From assembly GCA_902834965.1 (NCBI GenBank), contig CADFKY010000051.1:1-7045 (forward strand): a DNA stretch of 7,045 bases, given 5' to 3'. The notes beneath the pieces are model-generated. The model did not search any database and had not been told where the DNA came from. It worked only from the letters and a program-made list of their open reading frames with translations. Below are positions 220 to 6,984 of this stretch, piece after piece. Both the position numbers and the translations under genes were made by a program. This DNA comes from Veillonellaceae bacterium. GTDB taxonomy: Bacteria > Bacillota_C > Negativicutes > Veillonellales > Veillonellaceae. Every line of letters begins with the position of its first letter. The first letter of the stretch is position 1.

Positions 220-262
220 AGAAAGGGGATGTATATTGCGCTTTCCTTCTCCCCATACCTTT

Positions 263-576
263 ATGATTTCAATCTATATGTAAGATTGATAATGCGTTAT
301 ATGTAGAAAAATTATAAATTAAATATTTTATTTGGTGAATAATGAAAGGTCTATTTTTAGGGTAAACGATTAGGTATATATTAGCGTGGGGGTCCTCCAA
401 AAACGACTTAGCGGCCCTGCGAAGCAGGGTGGATAGCTTTGGAGGCTTTTGGAGGGCTACCACGCTTAATAAAGTGTTTTGGATACAGAATAGACCTTTC
501 AAGATATTTGTGGGAAACTTAAATTTATAATTTTCATATGTATACATTATAAATGTCGCATATATATTGAAATCAT
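263..576. repeat. 314-bp imperfect palindrome (MITE-like long inverted repeat)
   Basis: Almost the whole middle of the 576-base intergenic region can fold on itself. The tips are perfect 11-bp inverted repeats, ATGATTTCAAT (263-273) and its complement (566-576). Further inward there are perfect 13-bp pairs at 308-320 with 522-534 and at 343-355 with 489-501, then AGCGTGG (383-389) with 460-466, CCTCCAAAA (394-402) with 447-455, and CCCTGC (415-420) with 424-429 around a GAA loop. The pairs occur in the right order with near-equal spacing (arms of 158 and 153 bases), so this is one continuous structure. No transposase lies in the window. No clear target-site duplication directly abuts the tips. 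It could be a miniature inverted-repeat element, a decayed insertion sequence, or a structured transcript. The reading frame on the minus strand through it looks like a by-product of the palindrome. Confidence 0.8.
383..466. repeat. GC-richer apical hairpin of the large palindrome
   Basis: The centre of the palindrome is much richer in G and C than its flanks. It forms an outer stem (383-389 with 460-466), a middle stem (394-402 with 447-455) and a tip stem CCCTGC-GAA-GCAGGG (415-429). The right side carries a near-tandem duplication, TTTGGAGGC then TTTTGGAGG (438-455), which makes that side longer between the middle and tip stems. No run of T follows, so it does not look like an intrinsic terminator. 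Confidence 0.6.
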
Positions 577-595
577 CGCTTTAACACGATAAAAT
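567..595 (+). promoter_or_regulatory. Sigma70-type promoter of the OPT transporter operon
   Basis: TTGAAA (567-572), exactly 17 bases, then TAAAAT (590-595): each hexamer matches the consensus at five of six positions with ideal spacing. Transcription would start near 602, giving a leader of about 50 bases before the ATG at 653. The -35 box lies wholly within the right tip of the large palindrome. The -10 box lies outside it. Confidence 0.65.
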
Positions 596-3611: not shown

Positions 3612-3642
3612 GTGTGTATAGTAACAGCTGTTTAATTGTGAA

Positions 3643-3674
3643 AAGAACCGCTCCTAAGGGGGCGGTTCTTTTTT
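3643..3674. terminator. Bidirectional intrinsic terminator between convergent transcription units
   Basis: A 12-bp stem (3643-3654 with 3659-3670, one G-T pair) closes a 4-base loop TAAG. The core is AAGAACCGC with GCGGTTCTT. On the plus strand the stem runs directly into a T-run (3669-3674), which terminates the OPT operon. On the minus strand AAAA at 3641-3644 gives a short U-run, so it can also end the SLH gene whose stop codon lies only a few bases away at 3682. Confidence 0.9.
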
Positions 3675-5235: not shown

Positions 5236-6984
5236 TTAGCGTTTTACTGTCATTTTTACTTTGGAACCGAATAATTTAGAGATCCCTTGTTGTGTTTCTT
5301 TAGATGCTGTAGATACAACTGCGTAAAGTTGGTTATTTTCTACATCAGGGAATGTAGCTAGAATTGTACCTGCTTTTTCATTTTTGTTGTAGTAGTTGCG
5401 GAAGTTTGTATCGATTGCATCGTATTCAGCTTGGCTGTATTGGGAGGATTCAACTACAACATAGTTATTTACAGTAGAATCACCACGGTTTGCAAGGTTA
5501 GCTTTTACTGTGGAAATATCGCTGTCTGTTTTCAAAGCTACGTGTAATTGATTGTCACGCCAGTACATTACGCCATAATTTTGGAATGCATCTTCTGTTT
5601 TATAAGTTTTATTTAATTCAGAAAATACTTTGTCTTCTAATGCAGCTTGTTGTTTTTGATCAAGTGCTTTTAGTGTGCTACGACGAACAGGGCGAACTGT
5701 GCGAGTAGGTTCAGCTTTTTCCGCTACTGCAGCATTTTTGTTGCCCTTTAAGTCTTTGTCAGCTTTTTTTGCCTCAGCTTTGGCTACTTTATCTGCCTTT
5801 TCTGCCTCTTTTTTCATGTCTTTATCAGTTTTGGACATATCTTTTTTTGCATCTTTATTTACTTTGGAGGCCTCTTTTTCGATTGCTGTATCAGCTTTCT
5901 TTATATCTTCTTTTACAGTTGTTTCAGCTTTAGCTTCAGTTGTACTGTGTTTCGGTGTTGCAAGGCCAGCACCATTAAGCATGCGGTTCAAGATTGTTGC
6001 CGCTTGTGCTCTTGTTACAGGTTGTTTAGGGTTAAAGTTTTCTGTTGCCCCAGATGCTACGATGCCACGTTGAGCCATGTATTGGATATCTGCCAAGTAA
6101 GCAGAGGAGATGCTAGCTTCGTCTTTAAATGTTACTTTTTCTGCTTTTACAGGTGTAGAAAGATTTAATTTTTTAGCTAGGCTAGCGGCGGATGCAACGA
6201 ATTGTTCGCGGTCCATAGTTTTGCTAGGTGTGAAAGCTGTTTTAGATGTGCCTTCCATTACGCCTGCAGCACTTACTAATTTGATAGCAGAGCTAGACCA
6301 ACGATCTGCTTCTACATCAGAGTAAGAAGTAGAGGCCTCTTTAGTTACGATATCAGCTAATTCTTGTTCGTTTAAGTTATGTTGTAATACTTTACCATAA
6401 ATAGCAGCAGCTTGTTCACGAGTGATTTGTGCACTAGGTTTGAATGTATTATCAGCATAACCAGAAAGGTAACCAGCTTGTGTCATTGCTTGGATAGCAT
6501 CGCGAGCCCAGTTATCTTTTGTGTCAGGGTATATACCAGCAGGTAAGTTTTCTTTAGCTTTTACAGCTTTTTTACCTTCTACCTTTACAGCATCTTCTTT
6601 TACATCATTTTTTACAGAAGTATCAATGCGTTTAACGTCATTTTTTACAGAAGTGTTAACGCGTTTAGCATCGTTTTTTACGGATGTATCAGTGCGTTTA
6701 GCAGCGTTTTTAGCAGATGCATCAGCATGTTTTGCATCACGTTTTACAACTGTGCTACCATGTTTAGCATCATTTTTTACGGATGTATCAATACGTTTAG
6801 TATCGTTTTTAACAGATGTATCAACACGGTGTTCATCCGCTTTAGCAGAAACTTCAGCTCTAGTAGCCACATTAGATACTTCGGATTTTATATGAGTCGC
6901 AGTTGTTTCAGCGTGAGCCATGCTGAATGTAGAGCCAAGGGCCAATGTAATTGCTAAAGACAAAGATAATTTATTTAGTTTCAT
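5236..6984 (-). CDS. Secreted triple-SLH protein with 11-residue repeats on both sides of the SLH region
   Basis: This 582-residue exported protein has a signal peptide (1-25, cleavage after AHA). Seven 11-residue repeats (about 54-130, consensus DTSVKNDAKRI) follow. SLH domains lie at about 150-198 (IYPDTKDNWA to ITREQAAAIY), 221-268 (YSDVEADRWS to MDREQFVASA) and 285-335 (ending VTRAQAATIL). A second lysine/alanine-rich block has five 11-residue units (362-416), then an arginine-rich stretch (428-435) and the C-terminal domain (469-580) shared with the neighbouring SLH protein. The start is ATG at 6984: AAAGGAG (6993-6999) lies 8 bases upstream. A longer frame from TTG at 7002 would place that ribosome binding site inside the gene. 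SLH domains should hold it to peptidoglycan in the periplasm, with the repeats as helical rods. No outer-membrane barrel is visible. It is probably a paralogue of the gene downstream. The exact role is unknown. Confidence 0.9.
   Translation of the reverse strand: MKLNKLSLSLAITLALGSTFSMAHAETTATHIKSEVSNVATRAEVSAKADEHRVDTSVKNDTKRIDTSVKNDAKHGSTVVKRDAKHADASAKNAAKRTDTSVKNDAKRVNTSVKNDVKRIDTSVKNDVKEDAVKVEGKKAVKAKENLPAGIYPDTKDNWARDAIQAMTQAGYLSGYADNTFKPSAQITREQAAAIYGKVLQHNLNEQELADIVTKEASTSYSDVEADRWSSSAIKLVSAAGVMEGTSKTAFTPSKTMDREQFVASAASLAKKLNLSTPVKAEKVTFKDEASISSAYLADIQYMAQRGIVASGATENFNPKQPVTRAQAATILNRMLNGAGLATPKHSTTEAKAETTVKEDIKKADTAIEKEASKVNKDAKKDMSKTDKDMKKEAEKADKVAKAEAKKADKDLKGNKNAAVAEKAEPTRTVRPVRRSTLKALDQKQQAALEDKVFSELNKTYKTEDAFQNYGVMYWRDNQLHVALKTDSDISTVKANLANRGDSTVNNYVVVESSQYSQAEYDAIDTNFRNYYNKNEKAGTILATFPDVENNQLYAVVSTASKETQQGISKLFGSKVKMTVKR
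5245..5580 (-). other. Shared C-terminal domain, copy B (residues 469-580)
   Basis: This is the counterpart of the domain at 3766-4101. The motif YWRDNQLHVAL leads into a helix and a VVVES strand. A second half begins at GTILATFPDVENNQLYAVV and ends KVKMTV. The two halves share the order strand, N/G-QL strand, helix, strand. It ends two residues before the stop codon, so it is the true C-terminus of the protein. Confidence 0.6.
5737..5901 (-). repeat. Five 11-residue lysine/alanine-rich repeats after the SLH domains
   Basis: Residues 362-416 divide into KKADTAIEKEA, SKVNKDAKKDM, SKTDKDMKKEA, EKADKVAKAEA and KKADKDLKGNK. The period is 11 residues, as expected for a hendecad helix. The first unit resembles the N-terminal repeat KRIDTSVKNDA position by position, so the two blocks probably share an origin. 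Confidence 0.7.
6595..6825 (-). repeat. Seven tandem 33-bp (11-residue) repeats before the SLH domains
   Basis: Residues 54-130 are seven consecutive 11-residue units, for example IDTSVKNDAKH, TDTSVKNDAKR, VNTSVKNDVKR and IDTSVKNDVKE. Units 3 and 4 are the most diverged. The DNA repeat is 33 bases with motifs such as TTTTTTACAGAAGTATCA on the plus strand. It encodes a charged helix with 11-residue periodicity and is a candidate for copy-number variation. Confidence 0.85.

Follow-up and report, generated by a model that had tools for sequence, protein, structure and literature searches.

The locus and its palindrome

The window, the whole stretch of 7,045 nucleotides that was analysed (contig CADFKY010000051.1 of a Veillonellaceae bacterium), contains two divergent genes separated by a palindrome of 314 bases at positions 263 to 576. 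The gene downstream of the palindrome, at 653–2731, encodes an OPT-family transporter. An arm search and folding both showed that the palindrome is real and has the coordinates given in a preliminary description made from the sequence alone. The search returned four arm pairs, all mutually in register: 263–294/545–576 (84% complementary across 32 nt), 298–323/519–544 (81% complementary), 343–355/489–501 (13 bp, perfect), and 383–402/447–466 (85% complementary). Inspection by eye located the perfect 11-bp tips ATGATTTCAAT/ATTGAAATCAT inside the first pair and a second perfect 13-bp block, AAAATTATAAATT/AATTTATAATTTT, inside the second. The tips, both 13-bp pairs, and the GC-rich apical hairpin had all been noticed in the preliminary description. 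The segment 255–585 was folded under RNA rules (RNAfold) and compared with 100 shuffles per strand. Both strands folded far beyond chance: –107.9 kcal/mol for the plus strand (shuffle mean –66.3, z = –8.0) and –87.4 kcal/mol for the minus strand (shuffle mean –46.0, z = –8.8), with none of the 100 shuffles as good in either case. Only the central part of the palindrome, approximately 399–450, is common to other loci. The features are as follows.

263..576, whole palindrome, allele l2r2 (allele names are given below), two arms of about 155 nt each (arm search, RNAfold)
263..382, plus strand, left outer arm, of which little or nothing was found at the corresponding site of V. rogosae and V. infantium
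383..398, plus strand, left inner arm, locus-specific (arm search, locus comparison)
399..450, plus strand, core common to other loci (12-copy alignment, pair counts)
399..450, plus strand, layout of the core: AAAAA, CGACTT (404–409), apical hairpin, TGGAG (440–444), GCTTTT
415..429, plus strand, variable apical hairpin CCCTGC-GAA-GCAGGG (by eye; fold, alignment), replaced by about 8–10 nt in minimal copies
451..466, plus strand, right inner arm, complement of 383–398 (arm search, locus comparison)
467..576, plus strand, right outer arm, its outer part (about 522–576) kept at 89–91% identity in two coreless species
567..595, plus strand, promoter-like site TTGAAA-17-TAAAAT upstream of the transporter gene (consensus match only)
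241..254, plus strand, pyrimidine-rich stretch CTTTCCTTCTCCCC at the left edge of the palindrome (by eye)

The right arm of the palindrome ends, at its tip, within the –35 element of the promoter-like site, so that the two overlap; promoter-like consensus matches in the region numbered 7, against 3.3 expected. Elsewhere, some left halves follow a stretch of CTCC or CTCCC, which is complementary to the GGAG of the core (by eye). A 92-residue open frame on the minus strand (269–547) crosses the palindrome, has no Pfam match, and most likely occurs by chance. Two other features of the window lie apart from the palindrome. A terminator-like hairpin at 3641–3672 (AAAAGAACCGCTCC/GGGGCGGTTCTTTT) is devoid of the core and provides a useful contrast. 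In-register coding repeats of 33 nt (11 residues) are located at 6597–6858 within the gene of an SLH-domain protein.

A dispersed family sharing a conserved tip

A search for dispersed copies, suggested in the preliminary description, revealed relatives at other loci and orthologous sites without the core. Thus, the palindrome is not confined to the locus of the window, and a structure specific to this site was rejected. Twelve aligned cores read AAAACGACTT-RGC-hairpin-GCY-TTGGAGGCTTTT, and the adjoining arm columns vary freely yet pair. The tip common to nearly all copies is CGACTT-(8 to ~50 nt)-TGGAG. Pair counts on this alignment showed that the core pairs covary: 95.4% of the paired cells were complementary (79.6% in shuffles) and the covariation score was 0.412 (0.136 in shuffles), with none of 500 shuffles as high for either measure. 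Sliding the partners by one column lowered pairing to 46–59%, a comparison that favours the true register because the structure was drawn from the same 12 sequences.

A covariance model of the core (R1) matched 12 of 14 Veillonella genomes (E ≤ 0.1), yielding 113 rows, with up to 20 per genome. Genomes G008 and G014 harbor subtypes with GTGTCGGC in place of the TGGAG side, indicating that the tip is common to nearly all R1 rows but not to all. G006 had no R1 match but contained one pattern match folding as a long palindrome, making it the thirteenth Veillonella genome, and no convincing copy was found in G010, where the match had no surrounding palindrome and looks like chance. Across the class, R1 matched 18 of 300 genomes (E ≤ 0.01), comprising the 12 Veillonella genomes and six others, G182 among them, with one weak match each. 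At E ≤ 0.5, a model of the minimal form (R2, built from 12 sequences) matched 13 of the 14 Veillonella genomes, with weak matches in two (G007, 0.48; G010, 0.004). Across the class, it matched 14 of 300 genomes (E ≤ 1e-3): 11 Veillonella, G182 with 10 matches, and G064 and G185, whose single matches are not surrounded by a palindrome and look like chance. G182 belongs to the same class but lies outside Veillonella. Eight of its 10 places were folded and all eight form a hairpin around the core. The family therefore extends beyond the genus, and the claim that it is limited to Veillonella was rejected. Two of the similar elements in G182 (loci L229–L236) are 110 nt apart.

A total of 1.6 Mb of V. 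parvula SKV38 was scanned with a relaxed pattern (CGACTT-N5-55-TGGAG, up to one mismatch, complementary flanks). The 15 copies obtained were confined to the 736 kb closest to the origin, and the 860 kb located further away had none. Control scans with four reversed or scrambled motifs returned 0, 1, 0, and 1 copies. The two motifs were separated by 8–10 nt in 12 of the copies and by 30, 30, and 37 nt in the other three.

Comparison of the palindrome with phage and plasmid records returned only short, weak matches (E ~0.3, 8–15% of the query). None of the nine Rfam 15 matches (E up to 5) falls within 263–576, and no paper on this palindrome family was found among the literature matches listed. 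Veillonella is not mentioned in the main text of two papers in which the word was looked for. Head-to-head pairs of elements about 350–495 nt apart occur at G001:237276/237628, G005:133724/134105, and G013:261539/262032; the resemblance of the cores within these pairs (by eye) suggests local inverted duplication.

Variation at the locus of the window

Searching with the transporter returned 14 loci, seven of which were from Veillonella. The palindrome of the window is also present in V. parvula SKV38 (98% identity) and V. denticariosi (96% identity) as the same allele. At this locus, the core and almost the entire left arm are missing from V. rogosae and V. infantium, which retain the outer right arm (window ~522–585; 91% and 89% identity, respectively); this outer part is therefore probably native promoter-side DNA. 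The coreless sites may be deletions rather than the original state. G002 (Veillonella sp. T11011-6) and G009 have the same core at this locus but different arms. G011, G012, and G013 harbor a hybrid, combining the left arm of one type with the right arm of the other (by eye). These alleles are referred to as l2r2 (the type of the window), l1r1 (G002 and G009), and l1r2 (G011, G012, and G013).

Arms are complementary and local, and some include inverted copies of coding ends

The inner arms, about 20 nt adjoining the core, are unlike between loci yet pair within each locus. Complementarity extends into the outer arms: the mean score at 25–175 nt from the core was 20.6 (113 rows), compared with 10.1 at 200–350 nt (112 rows) and 10.5 for mismatched arms, a control made stricter by the inclusion of some orthologous pairs. 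Relative to the mismatched arms, p was below 0.01 for 32 of the 113 rows and for one of the 112 far stretches. When hairpins were sorted by a loose core pattern, the score was 23.0 with the core (n = 17) and 11.5 without it (n = 102), two groups that are not matched since 65 of the 102 coreless hairpins have loops of at most 12 nt, and that include mis-sorted members (no fewer than two hairpins of the core group, n = 17, look false, and the coreless group contains at least one degraded copy). The score was 13.0 for coreless hairpins with stems of at least 15 (n = 23).

At several loci, one arm consists of the end of the neighbouring coding sequence and the other arm of its inverted copy (by eye):

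L027 and L028, coding end in one arm and its inverted copy in the other (by eye)
G005:C1:358201, coding end in one arm and its inverted copy in the other, the orthologous G001 site being without core and without copy (by eye)
G005:480541/G013:2019819 locus, coding end in one arm and its inverted copy in the other (by eye)

According to a simple open-frame script (at least 80 residues), the right-hand gene ends towards the element in 83 of the 113 rows, corresponding to 27 of 35 locus groups made by flank matching, in which some neighbouring elements were merged. The stop codon is 14–101 nt from the core in 78 of these 83 rows. The locus of the window, with its divergent genes, departs from this pattern.

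Stacked left halves and exchange of arms

In the 500 nt on either side of the 113 rows, left half-motifs (AAAACGACTT) devoid of a partner numbered 25 on the left and three on the right, for an expectation of about 3.4 per side based on distal SKV38 DNA. Partnerless right half-motifs were found three times on the right. Half-motifs with a possible partner according to a loose test numbered 30 on the left and nine on the right, and those in the opposite orientation 22 and one. A wider pattern gave 52 relic left-half entries adjoining 35 rows and corresponding to 51 distinct places. In 13 of the 51 relics, the inner arm matches the active arm of another species and not that of the species in which the relic lies, in 12 cases at the same locus. 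The score in question was reached by 22 of 162 same-locus comparisons versus 10 of 4,536 other-locus comparisons. Nine of the 52 entries match their own active arm and 30 match no active arm among those found.

Exchange was reciprocal at G005:480541/G013:2019819 and at G008:94935/G014:148310, the relic of one genome being the active arm of the other. G008:58138/G014:116421 is likewise reciprocal by eye, with a score of 18 in one direction and 11 in the opposite one. In 50 of 51 cases overall, and in all 13 swapped cases, the right arm is a better partner for the active left arm than for the relic. Most simply, exchange would affect the left arm, which would then serve as the template for a re-copied right arm; under this order of events, the hybrids (l1r2) at the locus of the window would be unrepaired intermediates. 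Import of whole alleles from other strains by natural transformation could also exchange arms.

Two tandem arrays were noted. At L057 (16100–16600; G005:C3:461605–462077), three tandem units of about 210 nt are present, of which only the last is a full hairpin; each of the other two terminates in a broken core, TGGAGTCCCCC. At L114 (upstream side of G014:C22:148310), four tandem left halves with two types of inner arm are spaced by about 75 nt and followed by one full hairpin.

Clustering of the copies around the replication origin

The distance to dnaA was determined for 98 copies (R1 and R2 rows at E ≤ 1e-3, part of which were inspected individually) in five genomes, in which the gene is located at about position 350 (G001, G009, G011, and G013) or at 1,645,503 (G012). 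These genomes carry 16–26 copies each. In total, 93 of the 98 copies are within 450 kb of dnaA and 12 within 5 kb. The 450-kb zone accounts for 41–44% of each genome, giving binomial p values of 7e-8 to 1.5e-5 per genome, which should not be multiplied because orthologous copies are not independent. The density per Mb was 240 at 0–5 kb, 38 at 5–50 kb, 11 at 50–150 kb, 21 at 150–300 kb, 15 at 300–450 kb, 2 at 450–600 kb, and 0.3 beyond 600 kb. It is therefore high at the origin, uneven, and low far off.

SKV38 harbors two copies and a degraded third just before dnaA, the third adjoining a run of eight DnaA-box matches. R2 matches within about 2 kb of dnaA numbered three in G009, three in G012, two in G013, and one in G011. 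Clusters of three and two close relatives of the near-dnaA copies are present in G003 and G005, respectively. The copies just before dnaA in G001 (2145347–2145950) have purine-rich arms, and the copies themselves point in opposite directions (by eye).

The concentration of copies around dnaA and the proximity of the SKV38 copies to DnaA-box matches could mean that the palindrome is a DNA site for the origin domain, acting in replication start, segregation, or nucleoid folding and kept by selection, with the arms as by-products. We regard this explanation as unlikely: the presence of copies varies between species, the parS matches of SKV38 are separate from the copies, the density does not form a smooth gradient, and true copies folding as hairpins around the core are found far away, at G012:461120 and G011:1155372 (both about 1 Mb from dnaA) and at G013:582343 (582 kb). 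The clustering poses a question of its own, one that a simple statistic can test.

Arm pairing and selection at the RNA level

The preliminary description proposed that pairing of the arms may be maintained by selection. Selection on a single transcript is expected to leave mismatches that are mostly G.U on that strand. With one copy per locus group, outer-arm mismatches were balanced (84 G.T versus 77 A.C) and inner-arm mismatches displayed a mild G.T excess (32 versus 19). Considering all rows, the inner arms had 34 G.T versus 8 A.C in the orientation >core>>, an excess coming largely from one orthologous locus, and 32 versus 41 in the orientation <core><. Seventeen close orthologue pairs were compared at paired sites, after four of 21 pairs had been dropped for an identity below 88%. 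One-sided changes numbered 154, against three double Watson-Crick changes and one other double change. Among the one-sided changes, 64 led to G.T, 52 to A.C, and 34 to other mismatches, and four were between non-Watson-Crick states. Distant pairs (69–84% identical) do contain changes in both partners that leave them paired, as many as 29 in a single pair. Such double changes would also be generated by compensatory selection, which tells against re-copying. Together, the one-sided changes of close pairs and the double changes of distant pairs point to drift of one side in the short run, followed later by replacement of the whole arm and rematching. The little strand bias and the one-sided recent changes make the pairing look re-copied rather than selected as RNA; RNA selection is disfavoured for the arms and was rejected as their main keeper. 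The arms seem to agree because they are copied anew from each other or from the flank.

The same data bear on a broader explanation, in which the family is a structured RNA or a transcription-terminator module with a protein-binding tip and pairing is kept by selection on the transcript. The position of the copies is terminator-like (83 of 113 rows, 78 with the stop codon 14–101 nt from the core), the core pairs covary, and the inner arms have the mild G.T excess. We nonetheless consider this explanation quite improbable, given the absence of a G.T over A.C bias in the outer arms, the one-sidedness of recent changes, the location of the window copy between divergent genes, and the lack of an Rfam match. 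Termination does not need arms that reach into coding sequence, as those of this family do. Comparison with a Rho-independent terminator (a GC stem that follows a stop codon and precedes a T run) gave a mixed picture: the position fits in 83 of the 113 rows, AAAA lies just outside the left inner arm (TTTT on the strand of the gene) in 46 of the 113, and the terminator-like sites detected in the region do not include the window copy.

A MITE-like or REP-like mobile element, mobilized as a whole palindrome by a transposase acting in trans and with arms that merely diverged, is very improbable and, as a MITE in the usual sense, not supported. Dispersed copies, orthologous sites that lack the core, elements with similar cores arranged head to head, and inner arms that are distantly alike by eye in some copies would fit. 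However, the terminal repeats of such an element would be the arms, and these differ between loci while the tip is shared; in addition, host coding sequences end inside arms, and comparison by eye of occupied and copy-free sites, which are heavily diverged, revealed no target duplication.

A palindrome family proposed to be seeded by its tip

We propose, with a probability of about 0.58, that these elements form a family of DNA palindromes seeded by a conserved hairpin tip (CGACTT-loop-TGGAG) and re-templated during DNA synthesis. The site would become single-stranded during replication or repair and fold on the core. The 3' end at GGAG would then fold back on CGAC, with possible C-G, G.A, A.G, and C-G pairing as read from the alignment; the G008/G014 subtype has Watson-Crick partners at these positions (by eye). 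The left arm would be copied to form a new right arm, a direction of copying that we infer, and synthesis would return to the normal template in the flank, because the flank has an inverted copy in the outer left arm. Which left arm is joined to the core would change by recombination among the stacked left halves, through the shared outer-left sequence and AAAACGACTT. The window copy, located between divergent genes and overlapping the promoter-like –35 element of the transporter gene, would be one such palindrome.

The template-switch pattern, in which the right arm fits the present left arm and not the relic, was found in the 13 swapped cases. Against seeding by the tip, the inner arms of new copies (for example G013:261539) have no shown source, and most relic entries match either no active arm among those found (30 of 52) or their own (nine). 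A more elaborate version of seeding and re-templating, which we find rather doubtful, views the elements as self-writing cassettes: the stacked left halves would be silent, one being joined to the core, priming by the CGAC/GGAG fold-back would write the matching right arm, perhaps by means of a specific polymerase or reverse transcriptase, and the family would spread outwards from oriC.

Comparison with known systems

Long palindromes are usually unstable in bacteria. Despite this instability, 16–26 copies are present per genome (five genomes), beside genes and at the origin, with arms that are seemingly renewed. The family may show how bacteria keep rewriting palindromes. If the proposal is correct, it would offer a natural record, readable in the sequence, of the birth, growth, and arm copying of palindromes, and a setting in which to test the creation and removal of inverted repeats by replication forks.

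The BOX, RUP, and SPRITE families share sequence along the repeat, in contrast to the Veillonella family, which shares the tip and has local arms. The stems of REP elements are conserved. According to the parts of the sources considered, the Veillonella elements resemble the pneumococcal BOX, RUP, and SPRITE repeats in being small, dispersed, structured, and limited to few species (PMC3049150), and the REP/BIME elements with their REP-associated tyrosine transposases in being extragenic palindromes with nearby copies in opposite orientations (PMC2817692). They differ from the latter in that stems are not shared between loci. REP elements usually exceed 100 copies per genome (PMC2817692), versus 16–26 in the five genomes studied here.

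Template switching at quasipalindromes makes the arms of an imperfect inverted repeat identical, one being copied from the other, as described in the portions of PMC8604942 and PMC7202029 that were covered. The Veillonella arms likewise appear to be matched by copying. The differences, relative to the same portions, are the conserved tip at many loci, arms of up to about 155 nt, stacked left halves, and clustering around the origin. Long inverted repeats in coding sequence, with an arm identity thought to be actively kept, also occur in Nematomorpha mitochondria, where template switching has been proposed; unlike in Veillonella, neither a conserved core nor stacked halves are described in the passages of that paper that were covered (PMC6649704). 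Arm copying by template switching was thus already known, and the present analysis adds a recurring conserved tip, stacked left halves, and clustering of the copies around the origin.
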